A stretch of 64,000 bases of DNA from Nitrospirota bacterium. GTDB lineage: Bacteria > Nitrospirota > 9FT-COMBO-42-15 > HDB-SIOI813. Both the position numbers and the translations under genes were made by a program. This document shows positions 5,183 to 19,405 of this stretch, piece after piece; position 1 is the stretch's first letter; each line of letters starts with the position of its first letter. The DNA lies in contig JADZCV010000010.1 of NCBI GenBank assembly GCA_020851375.1, positions 1-64,000 of the forward strand, in the 5' to 3' direction. Below the pieces are notes generated by a model. The model saw nothing but the letters and a program-made list of their open reading frames with translations, had not been told where the DNA came from and did not search any database.

Positions 5183-6112
5183 CTAAAAGTAAAATCTTGC
5201 CTGCCCTTTCAGGTCCCATCCTTCAAGATCAATAAAAAGAGGCTTCATAGTGCCTCTCCTGAAGTCAGTATATGTAACTACATCTCCACTCCTGATAATA
5301 TCCTGTTCCAGCGGGTCCACAGTAAAGTAGCGAACAAATTTCAACTTTCCTATACCTCCTATAACATAGTCTATGTCCATGCCTATGGATATCCCCTTTC
5401 GGAGGTAATACTCGCCGCCAACGCCTATATATGTCGCATAGCCGCTGCCGCTGATCCCTGTCTCCGTGACCTTGTAGAAGTCAAACCCCTCCTCCGGGGC
5501 ATAGACATGCAGCCAGACATCAGTGGTCAGGTAGGCCCTTGTAATTGCGAGGATGCCCATCCCGGCATAGATCCTTGGATCCGGCTTCTTTAGCTTACTT
5601 CCATCATCTCCGGATTTCACCTTTACTGACTTTTTCTCTGCGTCATCTGATTTATTTTCAAATATCCAGTATCTCTTTCCCCCTAACCAGAATTGGTTCA
5701 GCGACAGTGAAAATCTCGTCTCCCTCGCTGAAGGGATGTTGAAACCAACAAAAAAATTTCTCTCATCCCGGCTTACAGAGTCAAAGGTAGCTGTGCTCCC
5801 GCCAAATATTATGGCATATCTTGGATTGACATCGGCCTGAACCTGCAGGCCAATCCTGGGGGCGGCAATTCCCATCTCCGGCATGGCGGGACTCACCCCC
5901 TGGTATATAACAGGATAGGATGAAGGTTTTGCCTCGGTATTGCGCGGCCCAAGCTCAACCTCCGGGTGTATCAATACATAGTTTAGTTCGTTCAGGCTCG
6001 GTTTGTAATAACCATCAACAACTGAAAGACTCCACTGTATGTCTGCAAGGGCAGGCGATGGGGAATACGCAAGAAAAATGATACAGAAGATAAGGAATAA
6101 AATACGGTTCAC
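5183..6112 (-). CDS. Outer-membrane beta-barrel protein, family not recognised
   Basis: 309 residues. Signal peptide 1-23 (MNRILFLIFCIIFLAYSP, cleavage after PALA). The mature chain has alternating aromatic strands (e.g. TYIGVGGEYYLRKGISIGMD), a lysine/aspartate-rich loop (KSDDAEKKSVKVKSGDDG) and ends WDLKGQARFYF. The terminal aromatic residue is typical of BAM-inserted barrels. The size is close to OmpW/OmpA-barrel-like proteins. The start is a GTG that lies inside the end of a dispersed family A repeat: AGGAG sits 9 bases upstream, so the repeat supplies both ribosome site and start codon. Its neighbour upstream is the RND/LolA/DUF1302 module, but a repeat separates them. Confidence 0.75.
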   Translation of the reverse strand: MNRILFLIFCIIFLAYSPSPALADIQWSLSVVDGYYKPSLNELNYVLIHPEVELGPRNTEAKPSSYPVIYQGVSPAMPEMGIAAPRIGLQVQADVNPRYAIIFGGSTATFDSVSRDERNFFVGFNIPSARETRFSLSLNQFWLGGKRYWIFENKSDDAEKKSVKVKSGDDGSKLKKPDPRIYAGMGILAITRAYLTTDVWLHVYAPEEGFDFYKVTETGISGSGYATYIGVGGEYYLRKGISIGMDIDYVIGGIGKLKFVRYFTVDPLEQDIIRSGDVVTYTDFRRGTMKPLFIDLEGWDLKGQARFYF

Positions 6113-6276: not shown

Positions 6277-9180
6277 TCATTTGTAAATAAATCCCGGCCT
6301 GATAACCTTCACTATTGCAGGCAGGATAATAAGTGTCGCCAGAGAACTGGTTATCATGGCAACAGGTATAAGGAAGCCTTCCATGTGCAGGTAGTAACCG
6401 GTAAAGAGCAGGGTCAATCCACCTGCTGACAACGCCAGTGCAACAAATATTATCGCCTTTCCGGCAGTCAGAAGGGTCCTTCTTATAGCCTCATCAGTAT
6501 GCACCTTCAGGTCATAAGGGCCGGCGCTGCCTGCTTCCTGTCTGCTTCGTCCTGAGACCTCTTCCCTGAGCCTGTAAATAAGATAAATTGAGTAGTCAGC
6601 GCCGAAGCCGACTGCCATTGCAGAGATGGCGGCTGTGCCTACACCAAGCCCTATCCCGAAAAGTCCCAGAACACCAAAGTTAGTAAGGACTGCAATGCCA
6701 AGGGGCAGTAAGACGAGGATACCACCGACCGGCGACCTCAACACAATAGATGTAATTACAAATACGATGCCTGCAATCTGAAGTATGTTCCAAATCTTTC
6801 CGGCTACCATGGTCTGGTTAAGCGCCATCATTACAGGTATGCTGCCTGCAACGCCAACCTTAATACCAGGCGGAAAGCCCTCCCCATTATCACCCCCTGA
6901 ATATTTATCTACAATTGAAATCAGCTTCTGACCAAGCTCAGTGCTGTCATCCCGCAGAAACACCCATATCACGCTTTTCTGATACTGATAGTCGAGGAAG
7001 CGGTTCATTTCTCCATTTGAGCCTGAAAGCGAGAACAGGAACAGGAATTCAGAAATAGTGGCCCGTGAGTCAGGGATGGTGCGGTACGCAGGATCACCTC
7101 CGTGCATGCTCTGGTTTGTGGCCTTTACATAATCCACATATGACTGGGTCTTTCCGACCTCAGGGACAGACTCTATCTCCTTCTGCAGGTTCTCTATTGC
7201 ATGCAAAACAGCCGGGTCTTTAAGTGAATCAGGCTCCTGTCCTTCAAGGTAAATGTAGAATGTCGCTGTGCCACCAAAGTATTTGTTCAGCGCTGCATCA
7301 TCCTTCCTGAATTGTGTGGACTCAAAGAAGAGGCTTTTAAGGCTGTTTGTGACAGTAAGCCTGTTAATACCGTATAAAGAGATGGCTGCTACTACAATCA
7401 GGCCAATCCAGACAAGCCAACTGCGCGTAGTTACCAGCCGCGAGATGGCAAGGAGGAATCTGTCAAGAAGCCCCCCGTCTTCCACTGTATGCTCCCTGCT
7501 GCCTGCGACCTTCTTTGGCGGCTTCATCAATGACCTTGCCGCAGGAATAAATGTCATCTCAAGGACAAGGGCGCTCAATATGCCAAAGGCCGTAAAAAGA
7601 CCGAAGGACTGGAAGGTCTTTAGTTTGAATGTCAGCAGGGACGCAAAGCTCGCTGCTGCAACGAGTCCTGCTGTAATCATGACAGGGCCGATCTTTGTCA
7701 GGGATTCAACGACAGCCTGTTTTGAGGCATCCCTTCCCCAGTGGGTGCTGCCTTCAATCCCCCCTAACCCCCCTTTTTCAAAGGGGGGGATGGGGGGATT
7801 TTCACCTGCCACACCATATTTCCCTAATTCTTCATAATATCTCTTCAAGATCTGCACCGAATGCCCGGCAGCAACAGCAAGGATAAGTATGGGCGTCATC
7901 ATATTCCATGGATCAAGTGGTATCTTAAATACCCCCATCAGGCCGACAGCCCATACTACGCTGAGAAGGGCGCATATGATGGGCAGTATCATCCCCTGTA
8001 TGCTCCTGAAGGCAAGATAGAGGATGAACATTATTATGACAACAGCCACAGGATAAATGTAATGGCTCATTCTAAGCGAATCAGCCTCAAGGAATGAGAG
8101 CGCCACAGGAAGACCGCCAACATATATTTCAGTATTGGCATCCTTATACTTGTTTACTATATCAAGAACCTTGCTGTATATCTTTGAGTCGCTGACATAC
8201 CACTGCTCCCAGTCAGCCGCACCCTGACCTGCCTGCCAGCCGCTATCACCTCCGGCAGGCCATTTGGCATCTCCGCCGCCGCCCGCTGCCGGCCACTTGC
8301 CTTCCTGGCCCTGTTGTGTCCCTGCGCCCTGTCCGGCATCCTCAACCGGAGGTGACGCGCCCTGCTGTTCTGCTGCCGGCCTGGTTCCGGCAGGAGCACT
8401 GCCCTCTCCCCCCTTGCCCCCCCCGCCTTTCTGCCACTTCTTCCAGTCTTCCTGGGCATAGGCAGAAGACACGATACTTAATTTACCATTATCATCCATC
8501 ATGTTATTCTGAAATTGTTTCAGAAGCTCATGTCCCTGCTTCGTTTGAGACCCTGAAGCAAGTTCAGGGTGACGAACCGGGCTGTCATATACCTTTGTCA
8601 GCCTCCCGGCATTGTTCGTATTATCTTCTGCCTTGCCTTGCTTCTCCTGCCAGTTGCTGTCTCCCCCCCTGAAGTCGAGTATTATTGCTGCTACAGTCCC
8701 GTCCGCGGATATCAGACTGTTAATAAACGCAGGGTTTGAATAGACTCGCTCTTTTAATTTCTTCATGCCCTCAGGTGTGTATTCTATCCCATCGAGAAGG
8801 CTGTTGATTTCAAGCGAATCCCCCTCGGCCTTGACCACCTTTACCTTGCGGTCTGCAATGCTCACAACGTTGTTTTCCAGTATGCCGGGCAGTGTCTTAA
8901 CCTCTTCAGTTATCTTCCGTATCTTTTCTATATCTGCCGGGTTGAATATGTCACCATCTTTGGACGCAACCCCGATCAGCACAACACGGCTCCCGCCGAA
9001 CTGCTTTTCTATCTCATTATTCAGCTTTACATACGGATGGTCCTGAGGAAGCAGGGCCTTTGGATCAAGCACCATATGGAGTCCTGATATCTGAAAGGCA
9101 AAGAAGACCGTGATGAACACAGCCAGCAGGATAGTGGTCACCGGGAAACGGACAATACGTTCTATGTGTTTGCGAAGCAT
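6277..9180 (-). CDS. RND/MMPL-family inner-membrane exporter with low-complexity and repeat-derived insertions
   Basis: 967 residues. One N-terminal helix (about 13-33), a periplasmic domain with KALLPQDHPYVKLN (an RND/HpnN/SSD-type signature), a block of helices from about 375 to 560 including a GH-containing helix (LILAVAAGHSVQILKRYY), a second periplasmic domain, and a second helix block with FGADYSIYLIYRL. That is the two-repeat plan of RND lipid exporters. Three unusual segments interrupt it: residues 201-227 encoded by a dispersed repeat (PVRHPELASGSQTKQGHELL), 244-327 W/G/K-rich (WKKWQKGGGGK, GKWPAAGG, AKWPAGG), and 460-476 encoded by a family B repeat (NPPIPPFEKGGLGG). It follows a DUF1302-like barrel and a LolA-like protein, suggesting export of a lipid or hopanoid-type molecule; the cargo is unknown. 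Confidence 0.85.
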   Translation of the reverse strand: MLRKHIERIVRFPVTTILLAVFITVFFAFQISGLHMVLDPKALLPQDHPYVKLNNEIEKQFGGSRVVLIGVASKDGDIFNPADIEKIRKITEEVKTLPGILENNVVSIADRKVKVVKAEGDSLEINSLLDGIEYTPEGMKKLKERVYSNPAFINSLISADGTVAAIILDFRGGDSNWQEKQGKAEDNTNNAGRLTKVYDSPVRHPELASGSQTKQGHELLKQFQNNMMDDNGKLSIVSSAYAQEDWKKWQKGGGGKGGEGSAPAGTRPAAEQQGASPPVEDAGQGAGTQQGQEGKWPAAGGGGDAKWPAGGDSGWQAGQGAADWEQWYVSDSKIYSKVLDIVNKYKDANTEIYVGGLPVALSFLEADSLRMSHYIYPVAVVIIMFILYLAFRSIQGMILPIICALLSVVWAVGLMGVFKIPLDPWNMMTPILILAVAAGHSVQILKRYYEELGKYGVAGENPPIPPFEKGGLGGIEGSTHWGRDASKQAVVESLTKIGPVMITAGLVAAASFASLLTFKLKTFQSFGLFTAFGILSALVLEMTFIPAARSLMKPPKKVAGSREHTVEDGGLLDRFLLAISRLVTTRSWLVWIGLIVVAAISLYGINRLTVTNSLKSLFFESTQFRKDDAALNKYFGGTATFYIYLEGQEPDSLKDPAVLHAIENLQKEIESVPEVGKTQSYVDYVKATNQSMHGGDPAYRTIPDSRATISEFLFLFSLSGSNGEMNRFLDYQYQKSVIWVFLRDDSTELGQKLISIVDKYSGGDNGEGFPPGIKVGVAGSIPVMMALNQTMVAGKIWNILQIAGIVFVITSIVLRSPVGGILVLLPLGIAVLTNFGVLGLFGIGLGVGTAAISAMAVGFGADYSIYLIYRLREEVSGRSRQEAGSAGPYDLKVHTDEAIRRTLLTAGKAIIFVALALSAGGLTLLFTGYYLHMEGFLIPVAMITSSLATLIILPAIVKVIRPGFIYK
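7756..7802. repeat. Family B palindromic repeat inside the RND coding region
   Basis: AATCCCCCCTAACCCCCC followed by TTTTTCAAAGGGGGG and its complement: same layout as intergenic copies at 13168, 30157, 31247 and 50073. In frame it encodes ENPPIPPFEKGGLGGIE. It falls in a loop before the next conserved helix, with no frameshift. Confidence 0.85.
8501..8590. repeat. Dispersed-type repeat with internal CCTGAA..TTCAGG dyad, in frame inside the RND gene
   Basis: Minus-strand GTCACCCTGAACTTGCTTCA is followed by GGGTCTC and, after a spacer, CTTCTGAAACAATTTCAGAA. In frame it encodes VRHPELASGSQTKQ. I recognise this peptide as the translation of a common bacterial intergenic repeat rather than of any RND domain. 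It is the only copy I see in the window. Confidence 0.65.
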
Positions 9181-9194
9181 GTAATCACTCCTTG

Positions 9195-10958
9195 TTAAAA
9201 GCTGTACTTTATCTCCATATACGCCCTGTCGTCATCGTCAAAGTATCCGAAGAAATTAAGCCTGCCAGGATCAGGGCCGGGATCTCCCGAGAATATATCA
9301 ACCCCAAAAAGCAATGTTACCTTATCTGTATATCTGTATTCAAGCTTTGGCCTGAAAAGATATTCATGCCTGTTTAACAGCGATATAGCAAGCAATTGCG
9401 GAACCATAGTCCCGTAGCGAATCTCTTTCCTCGCAAATATGGATGCCGCGTCCTCATGCCTGGCCTGCTGTATCTCTTTCGTGTGATGTAAGATTATATC
9501 CTGTGAAAAGTTCACGGATATATCTGTCCCGTATAGAACCGTCTTCACGCCAACTACGTGCTTGACATAGTCGCGCTGTATTTCCCCGAATTTTATCTCC
9601 GGCGATGTACACTCTGTGCAGGTACCCCAGTATTTGCCATCCACATATGCAAATTCTCCCTCAAGGACTATCTTGCCAAAGCTCTTTGCAACTCCTGCCC
9701 CGTATGATTGAAGACGCCTGAATACAGGGAAAAATGTCACGTCAGGCGATATGCCGAGGTTCCCAAGACCGAGACCTGAGACAGACCTGAAGGCAGCAGG
9801 GAAGTCATCCCACTGGTTGAAGTATGCGACTGCAAATTCATATCCCTTTACCATGCCGGAAACCCTGAGCCCGCCTTCGCTGTTCTTCAGGTTCCTCGGC
9901 ACCTTTTTGAGGTCAGGAAGTGTCTGAAACTGTGACCACTCAGACCGCAATGGGGCAGGCTTGTGCCCCCTGACATCCGGCACCCAGAGGCCCTCGATTG
10001 TCAGCGGACCTAAATAATAATCCCCCTTTACCATCCAGAGCGGTATGTACCTGTCAGACACATCCCGCAATATATGCTCTGTAAAGTCGAGGGGGTTTAC
10101 CTCATCAAGAATACGCCAGCCCTCAACTATTCCCCATCTTATTATCTGCTTCCCTATCCTGAAGTCCATATTACGCAGAAAGACATCAACATATAATTCC
10201 CTGACATCTATGCCGTAATTATCAACCTTAATTTCTCTCAGGTTTTTTATATCCGGTTCAGGTTCGCCGGGAGCAGGAGGTTCAATAAAGGCAAACGCCT
10301 TCATGGGGGCTATCGTCCCGACATCGTTGACATCATACGCAAGGTCATAATAAGACCATATTCTCGCTGTCAGCCGGACATCGCTGTTAAATGAATAGGA
10401 AGGTTCAAGCTGTAAGATATTCAGTATCTTGGAAAAGACCGCAGGGGTAACATATCTGTATGCAATCTCACTCTTAAAATATCCCCTTAATTCAATTTTT
10501 TTAAGGAAATCTTCATTTATCCTTGTAAGTAACCCGCGTGACGGCGGAGGGGCTTCTGCCGGTATTACCATAGTCCCTTCCTGAGGAGGCAAGGGAAGCG
10601 CTTCTTCAAATCCCCCCTCACCCCCCTTTTCTAAAGGGGGGACGGGAGGGGGGATTTCGGAAATTGCAGGACCTTCCGGACGACTTTCCTCTAAGGGCTT
10701 CTGTTCCGGCCCTTCTACCGGGGTCTCTTTAGTCGCTTCAGTACCGGCTGTATTCCCGTCCGATGGGTTTGACTGAGTCTCAACGGACACATCCGGCGCA
10801 GGTGAAATAACATCAGGCGCTTTTTCTGCTGTCTCTTCACCACTGCTTACAGCAGGATTAACAACAAGAAAAAGCACGCAAAGTATGAGAAATAAACAAT
10901 GAGACAATACCCTGTGTTTATCCCTTAAAACTGATTTAATTGATGACACGTGAAGCAA
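9195..10958 (-). CDS. DUF1302-like outer-membrane beta-barrel protein
   Basis: 587 residues. Hydrophobic signal (HCLFLILCVLFLVVNPA), then a low-complexity P/E/T-rich stretch to about residue 140 that contains a family B repeat in frame (EIPPPVPPLEKGGEGG, residues 101-116). From about 150 it is barrel-like: RGYFKSEIAYRYV, DVFLRNMDFRIGKQIIRWG, GRLNFFGYFDDDDRAYMEIKYSF at the end (aromatic C-terminus). RIGKQxIxWG and NPLDFTEH are motifs I associate with DUF1302 barrels. These often sit beside RND pumps and LolA/DUF1329-like proteins, exactly as here. The start is uncertain: 10958 is TTG, and a GTG four codons on is equally possible. It would be the outer-membrane partner of the RND pump. Confidence 0.75.
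   Translation of the reverse strand: MLHVSSIKSVLRDKHRVLSHCLFLILCVLFLVVNPAVSSGEETAEKAPDVISPAPDVSVETQSNPSDGNTAGTEATKETPVEGPEQKPLEESRPEGPAISEIPPPVPPLEKGGEGGFEEALPLPPQEGTMVIPAEAPPPSRGLLTRINEDFLKKIELRGYFKSEIAYRYVTPAVFSKILNILQLEPSYSFNSDVRLTARIWSYYDLAYDVNDVGTIAPMKAFAFIEPPAPGEPEPDIKNLREIKVDNYGIDVRELYVDVFLRNMDFRIGKQIIRWGIVEGWRILDEVNPLDFTEHILRDVSDRYIPLWMVKGDYYLGPLTIEGLWVPDVRGHKPAPLRSEWSQFQTLPDLKKVPRNLKNSEGGLRVSGMVKGYEFAVAYFNQWDDFPAAFRSVSGLGLGNLGISPDVTFFPVFRRLQSYGAGVAKSFGKIVLEGEFAYVDGKYWGTCTECTSPEIKFGEIQRDYVKHVVGVKTVLYGTDISVNFSQDIILHHTKEIQQARHEDAASIFARKEIRYGTMVPQLLAISLLNRHEYLFRPKLEYRYTDKVTLLFGVDIFSGDPGPDPGRLNFFGYFDDDDRAYMEIKYSF
10608..10657. repeat. Family B palindromic repeat inside the DUF1302-like gene
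   Basis: AAATCCCCCCTCACCCCCCT, then TTTCTAAAGGGGGG and its near-complement ending GGGGGGATTT. Lies in frame in the disordered region after the signal peptide. Confidence 0.85.
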
Positions 10959-10962
10959 AAAA

Positions 10963-11769
10963 TTACGGCCCCTCTCCTCTTCTCAGCAATCTTTCGGTAA
11001 AGAGGTCGTCACGCAGCCCGTTATTTATTTTAATATTGCTCATCTCAAATATTGTAGAGTGGCCTGTCTGTAAATTCTTTACAGTTGCATCCTTCCATAT
11101 CCACAGGTCTCCGCTCTTCTGCCACTGTATGGTCTGGGTCTTAAGAGGTTCCTTTTTATGGTCAAAATATTCGATCCTGATGGCACGCCATTCATCTTTC
11201 AGTATCCAGAATGTCCGCTTGCTGTAGGCTGCTCCCTCCTCCCTGGGGGTACTTTCAACAACGTAGCAGGTGTTCTTGTCGCATGGTTTCTCTCCGAGAA
11301 ACTTATGTTCATCCTCATCAATCCTTCTCTGTCCCATATCAGCAAAGGTGAGGTCTGATCCCATGAATGCATCGTTCTGGTCGCGGCTTGACACTGTGCT
11401 GACCTTTCTGAGGGACGGGAGATATAACCAGAGGCCGTCTGTTTTCCCTTCCTGTGCATAATCCCAGATTAGAAAACCTGTGCCTTTGACGTCCGGAGGA
11501 AAATCAGTAAAGAACAGTGTCTTACTGTAAAAACCGTCCTTTCCTCTGTAGTTTTTCCAGTAGCGGGAAGTAACGATCTTTCTCTCCTGTCCCTGTGCTG
11601 AGATAAGCCGCAGGGTTACAGTTGACTTCTGGTCATCACCCTGTGGAAGTTCATCCACCTTTTTCATGATGTCAAGGCCGGAAAGCGCCGCCTGTGAGGC
11701 AGACGGCCATACCATTGCCAGCGCAATGATGAGAGAAACACCAGCAACAAACACCTTCTTAATACCCAT
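10963..11769 (-). CDS. LolA-like outer-membrane lipoprotein-sorting-type protein
   Basis: 268 residues from ATG at 11769, chosen over a GTG at 11787 because AAAGGAG lies 8 bases before the ATG. Signal peptide MGIKKVFVAGVSLIIALAMV to SQA. The mature part has the DIMKKVDELPQGDDQKSTVTL opening (split here by my reading at about residue 33) and later LWLYLPSLRKVSTVS, FMGSDLTFADM and EYFDHKKEPLKTQ. These are hallmarks of the LolA-like family (PF17131) found next to RND exporters. A half-barrel of this type would carry a lipid or lipoprotein across the periplasm from the pump to the barrel partner. Stop and next start are almost adjacent (about 4 bases), so the three genes are one operon. Confidence 0.85.
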   Translation of the reverse strand: MGIKKVFVAGVSLIIALAMVWPSASQAALSGLDIMKKVDELPQGDDQKSTVTLRLISAQGQERKIVTSRYWKNYRGKDGFYSKTLFFTDFPPDVKGTGFLIWDYAQEGKTDGLWLYLPSLRKVSTVSSRDQNDAFMGSDLTFADMGQRRIDEDEHKFLGEKPCDKNTCYVVESTPREEGAAYSKRTFWILKDEWRAIRIEYFDHKKEPLKTQTIQWQKSGDLWIWKDATVKNLQTGHSTIFEMSNIKINNGLRDDLFTERLLRRGEGP

Positions 11770-11784
11770 ATTTTGTTCTCCTTT

Positions 11785-11990
11785 CACTCGAAAATACTCC
11801 TAAGTACCCGTCATTCCCGCGGAACCTGTCCCCTCAGGATTTTTCACCCGTCATTCCCACGCAAGTGGGAATCCAGAATCAGGCCATCAGTCTGGATTCC
11901 CGCTTTCGCGGGAATGACGTTTTCATGAACCCTGGTGAGCCCTGACCTGTGAGCGTGCCGAACAGTCGAAGGGCTCATGACGGTTCATCA
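11785..11990. repeat. Family A dispersed repeat upstream of the LolA/DUF1302/RND operon
   Basis: Holds CGTCATTCCCGCGGAACCTG, ATTCCCACGCAAGTGGGAAT and ATTCCCGCTTTCGCGGGAAT hairpins and the GGGCTCATGACGGTTCATC tail. Its end reads TTAGGAGTATTTTCGAGTG on the minus strand, the same AGGAG-N9-GTG cassette seen elsewhere. Here the real ATG with its own RBS follows a few codons later. Confidence 0.9.
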
Positions 11991-12105: not shown

Positions 12106-13134
12106 TTATGGCTTAATTGCTGTAATTACAGTAAATGGGCTCCACTCTGCAAGAGGTTTTTGTGCTACATTCCTGAAACCTGCCTCCTGAAGCCACCCTG
12201 CAATCTCCTTGTCTGAGTATGCTGCGCCTGCAGGTGTATGGATAAGCTGATTAACCCCGATCAGGGCTGAAAGCGCAGGACCTGTTTTGTCAGCATTTAG
12301 CATCTGCTCCTGCACTATCAGGAGTCCTCCGCTTACCATTGAATCAAATGCCTTCTTAAAAGACCTTATATTTACCTCAGGTGATTCCTGGTTCATCATT
12401 GAAGAGAAGAGAACTGCATCATGCCCTGAACCAAAGCTGTCTTTTAGATAATCCCCCTGACTGGTCGTAACCTTTTCCTCTGCATTAAACATCTTTATGA
12501 TCTCTTTTGTAATCTTCAGGGTCTGTGGAAGGTCAAATACGATACCCTTAAGTCCGGGTGTCTTGTTGCATAGGAAAATAGTAAAGGTGCCCGGGCCGCC
12601 GGCAATGTCGCAGAGCTGCTTTCTGCCGCCAAGGTCAATAGTGTCTGCAAGCAGGTATGCCTGGCCCACGGCGCGGTGGTGCATACCCATTATGTAATTT
12701 CTTGTTGTATCTTCATTTATATCGTGAGGCTTGTGAACTGAGGGCTTTCCGGTGACTACTGATTCAGGGAGGCCGAGCCATGCAGTATACCAATCGTCAA
12801 ACATTGACACAATACCGCCCTGGTATCTCTCCCGCCCCCTGACCAGAAATGCGCTTGACACCTCTGTGTTTGAGTACTTGTCATCTATCCTCTTCAACAG
12901 GTCAAGTGACGTGCATGCTATCAGTAATATCTCAAGGCCGCGCCTGTCTGCATTGCAGTCCCGCGCAAGCTCTTCAGCAGAAACCTGGCGCCCTTCAAGC
13001 TTTGTAAACAGCTCGAGGCGGTTTGCGGCATGCAATACCCTGGAACTCCAGTAGGCAGAGGCAATCTTCATCACTGCCATGAAATCCGGACCGCTGCTAT
13101 CCCATGCACCCTCTTTCCTGGTTTGCTCTCCCAT
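12106..13134 (-). CDS. SAM-dependent O-methyltransferase (class I, dimerisation-domain type)
   Basis: 342 residues from the second of two tandem ATGs, placed 5-6 bases after AAGGAGGG. Residues about 15-100 form the winged-helix/dimerisation domain (SSRVLHAANRLELFTKL, LLIACTSLDLLKR). The Rossmann SAM domain starts at motif I LCDIAGGPGTFTIFL and continues with KGIVFDLPQTL and HDAVLFSSMMNQ. This is the layout of hydroxyneurosporene/acetylserotonin O-methyltransferase and BchU/CrtF-like enzymes (PF00891 with a dimerisation domain). The substrate is unknown; a carotenoid, quinone or other aromatic/polyene is typical. It is upstream of the lipid-export module but separated by a terminator, so a shared pathway is only suggested by position. 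Confidence 0.8.
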   Translation of the reverse strand: MGEQTRKEGAWDSSGPDFMAVMKIASAYWSSRVLHAANRLELFTKLEGRQVSAEELARDCNADRRGLEILLIACTSLDLLKRIDDKYSNTEVSSAFLVRGRERYQGGIVSMFDDWYTAWLGLPESVVTGKPSVHKPHDINEDTTRNYIMGMHHRAVGQAYLLADTIDLGGRKQLCDIAGGPGTFTIFLCNKTPGLKGIVFDLPQTLKITKEIIKMFNAEEKVTTSQGDYLKDSFGSGHDAVLFSSMMNQESPEVNIRSFKKAFDSMVSGGLLIVQEQMLNADKTGPALSALIGVNQLIHTPAGAAYSDKEIAGWLQEAGFRNVAQKPLAEWSPFTVITAIKP

Positions 13135-13167
13135 CATCCCTCCTTGTTCACTCGAAAATCCCTGTTC

Positions 13168-13371: not shown

Positions 13372-13731
13372 TTAATGCTTATGGGCGTGCTCATGGCCAT
13401 GCGGATGTTCGTGTCCGTGTCCATGTTCATGGCCATTATTGCCTTCCTCTTCACCTTCGAACTTGCTTCTCTGTACCATATCAACCTCATTAATAAGTTG
13501 AATCAGCAGAGCTGCATGGCCTTTCTGCTCTTCTATAATATGTTCGAGGGTGTGTACTATGTCATCAGCTGCAGAAAACTCCGCTCCTGACATTATCGCC
13601 CTCTGATGTTCCAGTTTGTTTACTAACTGAAGCACCTCTCCAAGGTCATTCCTTAAATCGGCCGCTGCCTTCTCTTCATTGGTAAGCGTACCATGCGCTG
13701 CGTGACTGTGTCCTCCTGCTGTACTGCACAT
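13372..13731 (-). CDS. Small helical protein with histidine-rich metal-binding tail
   Basis: 119 residues. Starts MCSTAGGHSHAAHG, then a helical body (ADLRNDLGEVLQLVNKLEHQ, HTLEHIIEEQKGHAALLIQL) and a terminal GHEHGHGHEHPHGHEHAHKH. RBS GAAAGGAGAA is placed 6-7 bases before the ATG. There is no signal peptide, so it is probably cytoplasmic. His tails of this type bind Ni, Zn, Co or Cu in chaperones and storage proteins; no family is recognised. The body has the two-helix look of ferritin-like or four-helix proteins, which is only an impression. It lies between the Mo-cofactor/FmdE block and the methyltransferase. Confidence 0.75.
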   Translation of the reverse strand: MCSTAGGHSHAAHGTLTNEEKAAADLRNDLGEVLQLVNKLEHQRAIMSGAEFSAADDIVHTLEHIIEEQKGHAALLIQLINEVDMVQRSKFEGEEEGNNGHEHGHGHEHPHGHEHAHKH

Positions 13732-13790: not shown

Positions 13791-14420
13791 CTATACCTTA
13801 TTTCCTCCCGGCAGGTGGCCGAGGTAAATCAGGTTGACAGCGCTGTTGCCATAGTCAACCCTCGTTGCAGAACCAGGATGTATCTGTAACTGCCTGTAAT
13901 AAATCAGTGGTATATTGAGCGCCTCAGTTACAGCAACCCTTATCGGGCCTGTATGAGAAACTATGATGACCTTTTTTCCCCTGTACTCCTGTAGTGCCAA
14001 TTGTAGCACACTGTTTACCCTTTTTTGCAAGTCGTATATCGTCTCACCGCCTTCAGGGGTGTAGCTGGCAGGGTCCGCCTTCCACTTACTCAGCCCTTCA
14101 GGGTATTTCTCTGCTATTTCACCAAAGGTAAGCCCATCCCAGATCCCAAAGCACCTTTCCTTCAGCTCATCGAATATCTTATACTCTATTCCGAGAGAGT
14201 TGACAATAGGGGCGGCTGTCTCTCTGGTCCTCGCTGAAGGACTTACCAGAATGGCTGAAACATCACTCCCCTTTACCCATGTCCCCAGGTTCGCCGCATG
14301 GGCGCGTCCTCCCTCGTTAAGTGCCGGACCGTTATCTCCTTTATATATCCTGTCTTCAGGATAATCAGTGCTTCCGTGCCTGACGAAAATAATACTTGTT
14401 GACGGTTCCTTATAGCGCAT
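13791..14420 (-). CDS. Histidine phosphatase family protein (phosphoglycerate mutase-like)
   Basis: 209 residues. The catalytic RHG motif is at FVRHGSTDYPEDRIYKG, followed by LVSPSARTRETAAPIVNSLG, ERCFGIWDGLTFGEI and the second catalytic His in VIIVSHTGPIRVAV. This is the complete set of the branch 1 histidine phosphatase superfamily (CobC, PhoE, GpmB-like). The exact substrate cannot be told. Its ATG overlaps the end of fmdE by 11 bases, so the two are translated as a pair. Confidence 0.85.
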   Translation of the reverse strand: MRYKEPSTSIIFVRHGSTDYPEDRIYKGDNGPALNEGGRAHAANLGTWVKGSDVSAILVSPSARTRETAAPIVNSLGIEYKIFDELKERCFGIWDGLTFGEIAEKYPEGLSKWKADPASYTPEGGETIYDLQKRVNSVLQLALQEYRGKKVIIVSHTGPIRVAVTEALNIPLIYYRQLQIHPGSATRVDYGNSAVNLIYLGHLPGGNKV

Positions 14421-15193: not shown

Positions 15194-16000
15194 TTATGGC
15201 CATTTAGCACGCCACGATGCCTCATCATCCGTAGTACACCCAGTCACGCAATTCGAACTTGATGAATATGCATTGCCTGTGCTTGTGTATGTTCCGGTGA
15301 CAGTATATCTGTAGAAAACACCCGGGGTGTTAGGGTCCATTTCCGTAACTTCCTTGGAGTAGATGCCTGTAGCATTACCCACCATGTTCCCTTCTGTCCC
15401 TGACTGATTTGACTGTGTAGAATCCACGGTTGTATAAGGAATATAGAACTTCATGTAATAAGGCTCAAGAGGGTCTGTTTTCTTGTCTACAACCACCTCA
15501 AATCCAAATTCATTGTGCTGATTCCTGAGGCTTCCTGATGGCTGTGAACTGACACCCGATGTAGCCGTAGTACCAGGGGCTAAAGGCGCATTATAATACC
15601 TTACTGAAAAATGCGGCTGCAATACTTCGGTCGTGGATGTCTGCCCCAGCGCTGCTCCGCTGCCGCCGGGCGTTACCCCGTTTCCCTTCTGTGTATTAAG
15701 TGCTGAGTCTGAAAACCACGGCGTTGAGGTGTCTCCCCATGAGCACTCACCCTGATCAATCCAGCCATTTCCGTTTTGATCGCTGCATGTAATATTCGAA
15801 GGGTCAAATCCATTCGAACACGGAAGGCCGGTTATGGGATTTATCCCTTTAGCACAATAAGTGCCCTTGCCTGAATCTGTCTGCTGATATGTGTCCGGAC
15901 TTGCCTGAATGCTGTAGCTTACCTCTGCGCCGGCCATATCAACTGCGAAAAGACAGATGAATAGCAGGACGGCTGTATTTAGCATGCCGGTTTTCATCAT
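15194..16000 (-). CDS. Secreted protein of unknown family, Cys-containing with a calcium-loop motif
   Basis: 268 residues from the ATG at 16000, whose first bases overlap the moaD-moaE stop codon (TAATGATG). Signal peptide TGMLNTAVLLFICLFAVDMAGA. The mature part has six or more Cys, an EF-hand/TSP3-like DQNGNGWIDQGEC, many S/T/G, and ends DDEASWRAKWP. The translational coupling to moaDE is unexpected for an exported protein. The Cys pairs may be disulphide-bonded in the periplasm. The closing WRAKWP resembles the W-x-K-W segments of the nearby ABC ATPase and RND pump, but one short motif proves nothing. I cannot name a function. Confidence 0.75.
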   Translation of the reverse strand: MMKTGMLNTAVLLFICLFAVDMAGAEVSYSIQASPDTYQQTDSGKGTYCAKGINPITGLPCSNGFDPSNITCSDQNGNGWIDQGECSWGDTSTPWFSDSALNTQKGNGVTPGGSGAALGQTSTTEVLQPHFSVRYYNAPLAPGTTATSGVSSQPSGSLRNQHNEFGFEVVVDKKTDPLEPYYMKFYIPYTTVDSTQSNQSGTEGNMVGNATGIYSKEVTEMDPNTPGVFYRYTVTGTYTSTGNAYSSSSNCVTGCTTDDEASWRAKWP

Positions 16001-16677
16001 TATGGATGCTCGTCCACCCATATCTCCCCCTCCGGGGTTGTCTCTTTCTTCCAGATCGGTGTAATGCGCTTTAGTTCATCAATACACCATTTGCACGCCT
16101 TGAAGGCATCAGCCCTGTGGGCTGCGCCGACGACGATCAGGACTATGTTCTCTCCAATGCTTATTTCACTTATCCTGTGGACTATGTTGACCTCTATTAT
16201 ATCAAAGTCCTTGAGCGCCTTCTCCCTTATCTCATTCAATTTCTTTTCAGCCATTCCAGGATAGTGTTCAAAGTCCAGCTTTCTGATGGAACGTCCGCGG
16301 GATGTGCCCCTGCCTGTACCGAGGAATACAACTATCCCCCCGACATCGCCGGATTTTGCCTTGACCCTGTTGATCTCTTCATCTACTGAAAAGTCTTCTT
16401 TTTGTATCCTGACCATGGGCGACCCTGGCGCCCCTCCTGCAAACGGCGGAAGGATGGCGACCTCATCCCCATCTTTGACCAGCATATCGTCGGTTCCTAT
16501 CTCCTGATTGACAGATATAAGAACCCTCTTGGTCTTCAACATCTCACCAACCCTGGGAAAATCTTTTTCAATTAATCCAACAAGGTCTTTCAGCTTGACT
16601 GATCCGCCCACGTCAATCTGGGCATCTTCCTTACCTGCCAGGTTTTTTATGATTGCAAAAAATTTAACCTTTACCAT
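16000..16677 (-). CDS. moaDE: MoaD-MoaE fusion, molybdopterin synthase
   Basis: 225 residues from ATG at 16677, with AGGGGGG before it; a GTG six codons upstream is not needed. Residues 1-82 are MoaD, ubiquitin-fold small subunit, ending in DEVAILPPFAGG. The Gly-Gly normally carries the thiocarboxylate. Residues 88-225 are MoaE: GGIVVFLGTGRGTSRGRSI, RISEISIGENIVLIVVGAAH and the active-site region PIWKKE. Molybdopterin synthase inserts two sulfurs into precursor Z. In Mycobacterium MoaX a similar fusion is cleaved after GG to work. The same is expected here (APGSP linker follows GG), but no protease is evident. Confidence 0.9.
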   Translation of the reverse strand: MVKVKFFAIIKNLAGKEDAQIDVGGSVKLKDLVGLIEKDFPRVGEMLKTKRVLISVNQEIGTDDMLVKDGDEVAILPPFAGGAPGSPMVRIQKEDFSVDEEINRVKAKSGDVGGIVVFLGTGRGTSRGRSIRKLDFEHYPGMAEKKLNEIREKALKDFDIIEVNIVHRISEISIGENIVLIVVGAAHRADAFKACKWCIDELKRITPIWKKETTPEGEIWVDEHP

Positions 16678-16687
16678 ATGATCCCCC

Positions 16688-17455
16688 CTATTCACTCTGA
16701 TTCACAAACATCTCTGTTGCCCATGAAATAGACAAGACTGCGAATAACGTCAAAAACAGGAAACCGACAAGTATCGTATGCATCGAAGCCCCGCCGCTGT
16801 AAAAGGCACGTGTCGTCTCCACTGCATAATCTATAGGATTTATCCTGGTAATGACCTTTATCCATTCCGGCATAAAACTCTTTGGCACCATCGCAGATGA
16901 TAAAAACATCAGCGGCAGGGTCATCATGTTCCCAAGCATAACCAAAGGCTCTTCTCTCTTTAACCACATGGCAAGGCCATTCGATATACCTGAAAAACCG
17001 AGCGACAGGAGAAATACGATGACAAGACTTAGGAAAGCACCCTTAATCCCTGACACGCTTGCCCCAAATATAATCGCTATAATCATGATAATAAGACATT
17101 GTATAATAACCGTAACTGCAGTGTGTATGACGCGGCTCATAACTATTGAAACCCTTGAGACCGGGGTAACAAGCATCTTCTCAACTGTTCCAAAGTTGAT
17201 CTCTCGCAGAAGGCTGACGCCGGACCATGATGTGCCAAAAAGCACCGTCATAATAATTGCACCAGGCAGGAAAAAATCCATATAACGTCCCTGGGGAAAA
17301 CCCGGGAGGGATGCCATATTCTTAAATAACTGGCCGAAAATAAGGAGCCATATGAGAGGTTGAATAATAGTAAAGAGCGCCCACATAGGCATTCTAAGGG
17401 TTATCCTTAAATATTTATTGAAGAGATACCATGTATCACTAAAGAGTTGAACCAT
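16688..17455 (-). CDS. ABC-2 type transporter permease
   Basis: 255 residues with six predicted membrane helices (for example LFTIIQPLIWLLIFGQLF, GAIIMTVLFGTSWSGVSLL, VTVIIQCLIIMIIAIIF, FLSLVIVFLLSLGFSGIS). MMTLPLMFLSSAMVPKSFMP is the conserved ABC-2 segment. It is the DrrB/ABC-2 partner of the ATPase gene, three bases upstream. Exporters of this type move lipids, polysaccharides, drugs or antibiotics. Its place between moaC and moaDE is odd; the substrate is unknown. Confidence 0.9.
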   Translation of the reverse strand: MVQLFSDTWYLFNKYLRITLRMPMWALFTIIQPLIWLLIFGQLFKNMASLPGFPQGRYMDFFLPGAIIMTVLFGTSWSGVSLLREINFGTVEKMLVTPVSRVSIVMSRVIHTAVTVIIQCLIIMIIAIIFGASVSGIKGAFLSLVIVFLLSLGFSGISNGLAMWLKREEPLVMLGNMMTLPLMFLSSAMVPKSFMPEWIKVITRINPIDYAVETTRAFYSGGASMHTILVGFLFLTLFAVLSISWATEMFVNQSE

Positions 17456-17457
17456 AA

Positions 17458-18861
17458 TTAACCCTCTTTTTTACCCTGCTTAGCCCACCACTCTGCTGCC
17501 CCTGGCGTATTCATCCATTTCTTCCAGGGCTCTTCACTGCTCTCTTCCTCTTTATTTTCTTTATCTTTTACCTCATCATTTTCTGATGATGTAACTTTAT
17601 CATCCTTATCCATTTCCCATTCTCCCTTTCCCCAATCATTCTCAGTTGGCGTATCATTGTCCGCTTTTGCCTGCCGGCTCCACCACTCCTTCATCTCCTC
17701 AGGTGACCACTTGCCCCATTCACCGTTTCCGTTTTCGTTTCCGCTTTCACCCTCTTTATGGCCGCCGGAGGCGCTGCCGTCCCATTCTTTACCCCATTCC
17801 TGCTGGCTGCCCTCCTGGCCTTCCTGTACCTCCTGCTGATCCCAATCCCCGCCACCCTTCCAGTTCTTTCCCCAGCCGCCCTTCTGCCACTTGGCCCACC
17901 AGGGCTCACCGCCTTCTTCACTATCACCCTCTTTAAAGCTGGCGCCGCTGTACTTAAGATAGACATCGTCAAGGCTCGGCCTTGATATGGAAAGAGATGA
18001 AATGTCTATGCCATTCTCATTAAGGAGCTTCATCATCCACTGAACGGCCTCGCTCCCATTGTTGACATACACCCTGACATGTTCATTTTCAAGAAGGATC
18101 TCCTTGACCTTGCTGTTGCCTTTCAATATGGAGATGGCCTTGCTCTTTGCGTTCCCTTTAAGTTCGAGATTTACTGAATCTCCGCGAATACTGTCTTTCA
18201 GTTTATCCGGGGTATCAACAATCTTGATGCTCCCCTTGTGAAGTATCCCAATCCTGTTTGAGAGCTTATCCGCCTCATCCAGATAGTGGGTTGTAAGGAA
18301 TATAGTGACCTTCAGTTCACGGTTCAGCATGCGGATGTAATTCCATAACTGTGACCTGCTGTGCGGATCAAGCCCCAGCGTAGGTTCATCGAGAAATACG
18401 AGACTTGGATTGTGTATAAGGGCGGTCGCAATGTCAAGTTTTCGCCTCATACCGCCTGAATAAGTAGAAACGAGCTGGTCGGCACACTCCTTTATGCTGA
18501 ACAATTCCAACAGTTCATCTATTCTCCTGCTGATAGTCTTCCCGTCCATCCTGTACATCCTGCCCTGGAGAACGAGATTTTCCCTTCCTGTCAGGAAATA
18601 GTCTATTCCTGTTTCCTGAGCCACATATCCGATTGAACAACGTACCTTCACAGGTTCAGTCAGGACATTATGTCCTCCAACCCATGCCTGTCCTGATGTC
18701 GGACGGGAAAGGGTCGTAAGTATTTTTATAGTAGTGCTCTTGCCTGCACCGTTAGGACCCAGAAAACCAAAGATCTCCCCATCTTCGACAGTAATATTGA
18801 GGTTATCTACTGCCTTGGTACCTGATGAAAATATCTTGGTTAAGTTCTCTGTCTTTATCAT
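17458..18861 (-). CDS. DrrA-type ABC transporter ATPase with a 157-residue W/G/K-rich tail
   Basis: 467 residues. Residues 1-310 are a normal DrrA/CcmA-type ATPase: Walker A GPNGAGKST (35-43), Q-loop AQETG, signature YSGGMRRK (134-141), Walker B LVFLDEPTLGLDP (154-166), H-loop His 192, then the C-terminal regulatory domain ending RPSLDDVYLKYSG. Such ATPases normally end there. Residues 311-467 are low complexity with about eighteen Trp, in units such as WWAKWQKGGWGK, EWGKEW, GEWGKW and EPWKKW plus acidic runs. The WKWQKGG unit also occurs in the RND pump of this window. The start ATG has no strong RBS. Pairs with the downstream permease. Confidence 0.9.
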   Translation of the reverse strand: MIKTENLTKIFSSGTKAVDNLNITVEDGEIFGFLGPNGAGKSTTIKILTTLSRPTSGQAWVGGHNVLTEPVKVRCSIGYVAQETGIDYFLTGRENLVLQGRMYRMDGKTISRRIDELLELFSIKECADQLVSTYSGGMRRKLDIATALIHNPSLVFLDEPTLGLDPHSRSQLWNYIRMLNRELKVTIFLTTHYLDEADKLSNRIGILHKGSIKIVDTPDKLKDSIRGDSVNLELKGNAKSKAISILKGNSKVKEILLENEHVRVYVNNGSEAVQWMMKLLNENGIDISSLSISRPSLDDVYLKYSGASFKEGDSEEGGEPWWAKWQKGGWGKNWKGGGDWDQQEVQEGQEGSQQEWGKEWDGSASGGHKEGESGNENGNGEWGKWSPEEMKEWWSRQAKADNDTPTENDWGKGEWEMDKDDKVTSSENDEVKDKENKEEESSEEPWKKWMNTPGAAEWWAKQGKKEG

Positions 18862-18898: not shown

Positions 18899-19405
18899 CT
18901 ATTTGTTAACCGCCTTCTCCCTGATATATGTCCCTGACTTGCCGCCGGTCTTCTTCTCAAGGCAAATCTCGCTCAAAATCATCCCTTTATCTATAGCCTT
19001 GCACATATCATATATGGTAAGGGCTGCAATTGATGCGGCTGTGAGCGCCTCCATCTCAACGCCTGTCTGGCCTCCTACCCTGACTGTAGCGGTAATTCCA
19101 ACGGAGCAAAGACCGTTTTCATCAGGAACAGGATCCTCTGTAAAGGATATATCCACACCTGATAACAGAAGGGGATGACACATCGGGATTATATCGGGTG
19201 TCCTCTTTGCCCCCATTATACCCGCGACCTGGGCCACTGCAAGGACATCGCCTTTGGCAATCTTCCCATCCTGTATCCTTTTCAAGGTCTCAGGAAGCAT
19301 ATATACCTTACCTGTTGCTATGGCAGTCCTCGATGTCACAATCTTTTCACTTACATCCACCATCTTTGCCCTGCCCTCTACATTGAAATGTGTAAGCTCT
19401 GACAC
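18899..19405 (-). CDS. moaC: Cyclic pyranopterin monophosphate synthase accessory protein MoaC
   Basis: 168 residues from GTG at 19405, with GGAGG 7 bases upstream. Typical MoaC signature: [16 protein letters not shown] at the start, then [20 protein letters not shown] (His-Pro active-site loop), [20 protein letters not shown] and a closing KTGGKSGTY. Full family length. It works with MoaA to turn GTP into cyclic pyranopterin monophosphate. Confidence 0.97.

Follow-up and report, generated by a model that had tools for sequence, protein, structure and literature searches.

A short tryptophan motif is shared by two exporters encoded in one gene cluster of a Nitrospirota bacterium, a DrrA-type ABC ATPase, which carries it in a W-rich C-terminal tail, and an MmpL-type RND pump, which carries it in a W-rich insert. 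In the Nitrospirota genomes searched the motif is restricted to these two proteins and is conserved in them, and the two genes are linked and co-occur. The cluster lies in a window of 64,000 nucleotides (the whole stretch of DNA analysed), in which an earlier note had pointed to the shared motif; this observation is confirmed and reaches well beyond this genome. We read the locus as a possible variant of the DrrABC-MmpL7-LppX lipid-export route, LppX presumably having a LolA-like fold. Our preferred explanation, to which we give a probability of roughly 0.4, is that the products of the locus export a hydrophobic cargo in two stages and that the motif would take up one and the same cargo, or cargo that lies in the bilayer surface, on either side of the membrane.

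The ATPase gene (17458..18861, 467 aa) is on the minus strand, the plus strand having many stops across 17458-18861. The protein belongs to the DrrA subfamily (TIGR01188 drrA, 343.1 bits over residues 14-306 against a cut-off of 312.45; Pfam ABC_tran and DrrA1-3_C). Its best solved sequence relatives are ABCA lipid exporters, and none of the PDB sequence matches listed extends past residue 319. Residues 311-467 (17461..17931, minus strand) form a predicted disordered tail in which 18 of 157 residues are Trp, in agreement with the earlier count of about 18. The first tail motif is PWWAKWQKGGWGK (17866..17904, minus strand), whose residues W321, W322, W325 and W334 are identical in all 11 aligned sequences from families f1 and f2. 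It is followed by WSPEEMKEWW, a WW variant recognized by the profile A3 described below (17680..17709, minus strand), and by the C-terminal motif EPWKKWMNTPGAAEWWAKQGKKEG (17461..17535, minus strand; profiles A3 and A4), the C-terminus holding EPWKKW...EWWAKQGKK. No significant Pfam family was found on the segments at the tail junction, and a scan of viral contigs with the ABC protein gave no match. In 24 such tails (22 genomes and two Manganitrophaceae loci) there are 9–18 Trp per tail, a share of 8.8% as compared with 0.8% in the ATPase core; the ordinary DrrA homologues read (n = 19) have tails of at most 26 residues with at most one Trp each. The tailed ATPases form one clade (support 98/95) in a tree with 19 outgroups, for which it should be noted that long branches meet.

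The pump (6277..9180, minus strand, 967 aa) is a member of the MMPL/RND superfamily (PF03176, 105.4 against a gathering score of 20.5). It scores below the cut-offs for HAE3 RND pumps (TIGR00921, 208.4 against 351.9), for the HpnN hopanoid transporter (71.9 against 751.85) and for BstA (36.6 against the NCBIfam cut-off of 1400). Its structural model (25 sequences, pLDDT 77), which is better than that of the ATPase, has an MmpL fold: in Foldseek MmpL3/4/5 come out on top, and NPC1, Patched and HpnN (rank 50) are also found. Between TM1 and TM2, in the first loop, lies an insert of about residues 171-328 (8197..8670, minus strand), predicted from pLDDT and alignment to be disordered and periplasmic, with pLDDT below 50 at 189-276 and 278-326. 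It contains DWKKWQKGGGGK (8413..8448, minus strand; profile A4). The segment that had been matched to the ATPase tail, EDWKKWQKGGGGK, is indeed present in the W-rich insert of the 6277-9180 reading frame, the W-motif peptide segments of the exporters being EPWWAKWQKGGWGK and EDWKKWQKGGGGK. Where the system is present, a second RND paralogue of the genome lacks Trp in the corresponding loop (5 of 5 read), and the loop is short and free of Trp in three pump homologues from outside the group (L118-L120). Pumps of the Manganitrophaceae type (L112, L114, L115 and L117) have a conserved Cys pair, C-x-x-W ... HCQ, after the W-rich insert, which is absent from the f1 and f2 pumps. In the complete chromosome of Candidatus Manganitrophus GAC4 a frameshift inside the W-rich insert splits the RND gene (L127:10001-12558), which may be a sequencing error or real.

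A profile built from 11 ABC orthologues picked out the tailed ATPase in 22 of 395 Nitrospirota genomes (E ≤2e-131), the next group, at 2.6e-107 and weaker, being ordinary DrrA homologues. The RND family was found in 26 of the 395 genomes and in 21 of the 22 with a tailed ATPase (Fisher 3.7e-29, kinship uncorrected). By coordinates, 15 of these 21 genomes have the pair on a single contig, at most some 12 kb apart; in G291 the ABC gene is on a different contig from the RND gene. In the one tailed-ABC genome in which no RND gene was found (G008), the contig stops just past the DUF1302 gene. A W-rich RND insert was read in 20 of the 22 tailed-ABC genomes and was unreadable in G003 and G008. Two genomes, G005 (77% complete) and G369 (88% complete), have a W-rich pump, and no tailed ABC was found in them; nor was one found in G237 and G363, whose pump loop has no insert, and G001 has a pump fragment only. 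The system extends over several families of Nitrospirota, with Candidatus Manganitrophus among its carriers, and W-rich tails and inserts are kept in seven families. As judged from 21 of 22 genomes and from gene order, a DrrA-type ABC exporter and an MmpL-type RND pump are encoded and inherited together, as in a PDIM-type route. In a wider scan of genome contigs for the RND pump, the loop was readable in 23 of the best 80 of 84 loci; six of these loops, all from Nitrospirota, have W-x-x-W, and 17 have at least two Trp, including six from outside Nitrospirota, which are without W-x-x-W. Since 57 of the 80 loops could not be assessed, the absence of W-x-x-W elsewhere rests on few loci.

How specific the motif is was assessed with two profiles. 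A4 represents the W-x-K-W-Q motif and was built from 19 segments taken from both proteins; in the 395 genomes it gave 26 matches at E ≤0.02, all 26 of which are, by coordinates, in the ABC or RND gene. A3 represents the WW variant and gave 11 matches in 41 genomes (E <1e-4), of which eight are in the ABC tails of f1 and the other three in the RND inserts of f2, so that the f2 pump has the same variant as the f1 ATPase. Both profiles were built from these two proteins, so that matches in them are no surprise; what counts is that no others were found, and in these searches of Nitrospirota genomes no third protein with the motif came to light, with the reservation that short profiles can miss weak copies. 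A widespread low-complexity motif is thus rejected, and what the earlier note called a rare motif common to two exporters of one cluster is just that: it is present in the orthologues of both and not widespread in unrelated proteins, so that neither of the two findings named in advance as refuting it was made. W-x-[KQN]-W occurs 45 times in 24 ABC tails as compared with 6.6 in shuffles, and 18 times in 19 RND inserts as compared with 0.85, numbers reached by none of 2000 shuffles in either case, although the shuffles ignore the kinship of the rows. The motif is degenerate. W-x-x-W is missing from 8 of the 21 RND inserts measured, and in family f2 (4 genomes), where A4 has no match at E ≤0.02, the WW variant takes the place of W-x-x-W in the RND insert and the ABC tail has other repeats; the sub-motif is therefore not always common to the two proteins of one genome. 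A literature search, with subscription journals outside its reach, returned no paper that describes exporters of this kind with a W-rich tail or insert.

At the DNA level the two motifs are almost identical, and the earlier note had considered a shared sequence element in two exporter genes within 13 kb (together they span 12.6 kb). The 17-mer in question, AAGTGGCAGAARGGCGG, has two copies in the whole 2.50 Mb genome, only in the ABC and RND genes; in 100 shuffles of the window a mean of 0.05 copies is found at up to two mismatches. When KWQKGG is encoded twice independently with the codon usage of 19 window genes, at most 1 of 17 bases differs with a probability of 0.33, and relatives show free variation and drift between the codons used for the two motifs. 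The DNA match is thus explained by codon choice, the element is a protein motif, and a shared or dispersed DNA element is rejected in view of the two-copy 17-mer and the codon-usage expectation. The short DNA pattern for W-x-K-W is not enriched (51 genome-wide as compared with 60 for a reversed control), and it is therefore the longer motif that is special, the two-Trp pattern being unremarkable. These data also bear on the view that low-complexity drift or a dispersed element gave two tolerant linkers a similar sequence. For this view speaks that the linkers vary strongly in length and take in-frame palindromic repeats, as in the RND and DUF1302 genes. However, Trp is kept far more than its neighbours, at 117 of 127 positions in tails as compared with 703 of 1276 for other residues (9 pairs) and at 34 of 37 in inserts as compared with 260 of 757 (6 pairs; 19 of 21 RND inserts were measured, G271 and G118 being read separately). 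With the 17-mer limited to two copies, a DNA likeness expected from codon usage, and seven families keeping what the paralogous pumps lack, the view is largely refuted and we consider it very improbable.

The palindromic repeats are of two types. Of the dispersed CCCCCCTTTGAAAAAGGGGGG type there are 7 copies in the window, and the RND and DUF1302 genes contain two of these in frame. The second type (VRHPELASGS) is located within the RND insert, close to the W motif; the sites of both types are 7750-7803, 10614-10641, 8545-8583, 13174, 31254, 31291, 50203 and 51110. In relatives other repeats (PLTGEG and VRSQK types) are in frame in the same linkers.

The C-terminal tail of such ABC ATPases is cytoplasmic and the TM1-TM2 loop of the MmpL fold is periplasmic. 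No membrane segment was found in the ATPase tail, and from fold and hydropathy we infer that both linkers are disordered and that the motif is on opposite faces of the inner membrane, cytoplasmic in the ATPase and periplasmic in the pump. Direct binding of the two tails to each other, as proposed earlier, is therefore doubtful. More generally, the motifs could hold the two exporters together by direct contact or through a common protein partner, which is how the earlier note read them. Co-occurrence, linkage and motif sharing are what one would expect from such an arrangement, and for PDIM an MmpL7-DrrABC scaffold has been proposed without direct evidence, according to the part of the source available (PMC11539658). 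But the motifs would be in different compartments, a single partner would need receptors on both sides, and no third motif-bearing protein was found in the profile searches, which makes this reading unlikely. A common cargo, which the earlier note also suggested, is compatible with the topology.

The W-x-x-W segments could also be interfacial anchors, which fix the tail and the loop to the surfaces of the inner membrane without recognizing a cargo. The segments are rich in W and K, and the spacing of W is helix-like: i+3 and i+8 are in excess in tails and inserts, i+4 in tails only, and i+2, i+6 and i+7 are depleted in both (shuffles that disregard row kinship), a pattern that suits one face of a helix. 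It should be noted that i+4 is absent from the inserts, which are ill-suited to a long helix. At low confidence the models have helices over motifs, in the ATPase (a shallow model of 8 sequences, pLDDT 55, and below 50 over 309-467) at 321-327, 387-401 and within 446-462, and in the pump at 238-251. Anchoring also fits opposite faces, and surface binding without cargo matches the same data. However, typical membrane peptides are cationic and the tails are mostly net negative, reaching −28, and simple anchoring leaves the restriction of the motif to two proteins unexplained. We therefore regard anchors as rather improbable.

In the preferred two-stage export of a hydrophobic cargo, tail and insert would be disordered linkers with short W-x-x-W(Q) segments that probably become amphipathic helices when bound. 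On the cytoplasmic face the ATPase tail would first capture the cargo for the ABC step; on the periplasmic face the pump insert would then capture it and hand it over to the pump and a LolA-like carrier. The route would thus consist of a DrrA/DrrB-type ABC exporter, an MmpL-type RND pump, a LolA-fold carrier and outer-membrane proteins. We infer the putative binding of cargo by the motif. In favour of this scheme are the co-occurrence and linkage of the two genes, the restriction of the motif and the conservation of its Trp, the helix-like spacing of W, the W-free paralogues, the single clade of tailed ATPases and the precedent of PDIM export. Against it count the degeneracy of the motif, the absence of i+4 from the inserts, the W-rich pumps of G005 and G369, for which a tailed ABC did not turn up, and the equally good fit of surface binding without cargo. 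That a disordered Trp motif might serve as a cargo address on both faces, so that the motif and not protein docking couples an ABC and an RND exporter in series, is a more far-reaching idea that we put forward with considerable doubt.

The neighbouring genes provide candidates for the other parts. The conserved block reads moaC-ABC-ABC2 permease-phosphatase-methyltransferase-LolA-(DUF1302)-RND-outer-membrane protein, and its core genes (moaC, ABC, ABC-2 permease, histidine phosphatase, O-methyltransferase, LolA-like protein and RND) recur, mostly in the same order, in families f1, f2, f22, f24, f25, f28 and f31 and in Candidatus Manganitrophus. All on the minus strand are moaC (18899..19405), which adjoins the ABC gene wherever a locus read includes both that gene and its flank, the DrrB-like ABC-2 permease (16688..17455; PF01061, an ABC-2 membrane protein family, and 141.6 bits with the DrrB model TIGR01247 against a cut-off of 223), the histidine phosphatase (13791..14420, PF00300), the BchU/FlxJ-type O-methyltransferase (12106..13137; PF00891 and PF08100, below both NCBIfam cut-offs), the LolA-like periplasmic protein (10963..11787; PF17131, 184 bits) and the DUF1302 protein (9195..10958, PF06980), a probable outer-membrane barrel like AmeA (PMC6394551, as far as available). 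No DUF1302 gene was found among the loci read from f22, f25, f31 and Manganitrophus. After the RND gene, and kept beside it, follows a 309-aa probable outer-membrane protein (5183..6112, minus strand), judged from its aromatic C-terminus and its place, without NCBIfam or Pfam match. The presence of MoaDE, FmdE and a His-rich protein varies among loci. MoaD-like (ThiS family) and MoaE domains are fused in one protein inside the exporter block (16000-16695), and a 119-aa protein with the His-rich end HGHEHPHGHEHAHKH (13372-13731), conserved in many relatives and without family match, perhaps binds metal. The secreted protein said to end in WRAKWP does so, its coordinates being 15194-16021 (minus strand) instead of 15194-16000. 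It has no family match, and its WRxxWP C-terminus is kept in 7 of 7 f1 loci read. The gene was not found in the loci read of other families, which places it outside the conserved core, and it is rejected as a core part.

Among known systems, PDIM export in mycobacteria comes closest to the two-stage scheme. According to the portion of PMC11539658 available, it needs both DrrABC and MmpL7, LppX is also involved, and it depends on the C-terminal domain of DrrA, which has been proposed to bind substrate; even there, direct evidence for the way in which ABC and MmpL/RND exporters work together on a single lipid is still to come. Here the same short motif is conserved on both machines, which makes their putative cooperation accessible through point mutations in a few Trp. 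As in PDIM export, a DrrA-type ATPase, an ABC-2 permease, an MmpL-fold RND pump and a periplasmic protein of lipid-carrier type are encoded in one cluster. Unlike there, as far as that source can be consulted, the ATPase has an extra W-rich tail beyond the DrrA domain, a W-rich insert is part of the pump, and the locus also encodes a LolA-like protein as well as DUF1302 and further candidates for the outer membrane. With the AmeABCD monoterpene exporter of Castellaniella the locus has in common an RND pump (of HAE3 type in Ame), a DUF1302 outer-membrane protein and a periplasmic protein of the LolA superfamily; in the accessible part of PMC6394551 no ABC exporter is named among the Ame parts. 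It is from the logic of PDIM export, the likeness to Ame and the ABCA lipid-exporter relatives of the ATPase that a hydrophobic cargo is proposed; that the methyltransferase hints at a methylated aromatic or polyene is speculation. The HpnN hopanoid and BstA sterol transporters share the MmpL-like RND fold, but the pump scores far below both NCBIfam cut-offs. Finally, the ATPase of the O-antigen exporter Wzm-Wzt also has a C-terminal extension, which binds cargo; this extension is, in the part of PMC11539658 available, a folded carbohydrate-binding domain, whereas that of the ATPase described here is a W-rich tail predicted to be disordered.
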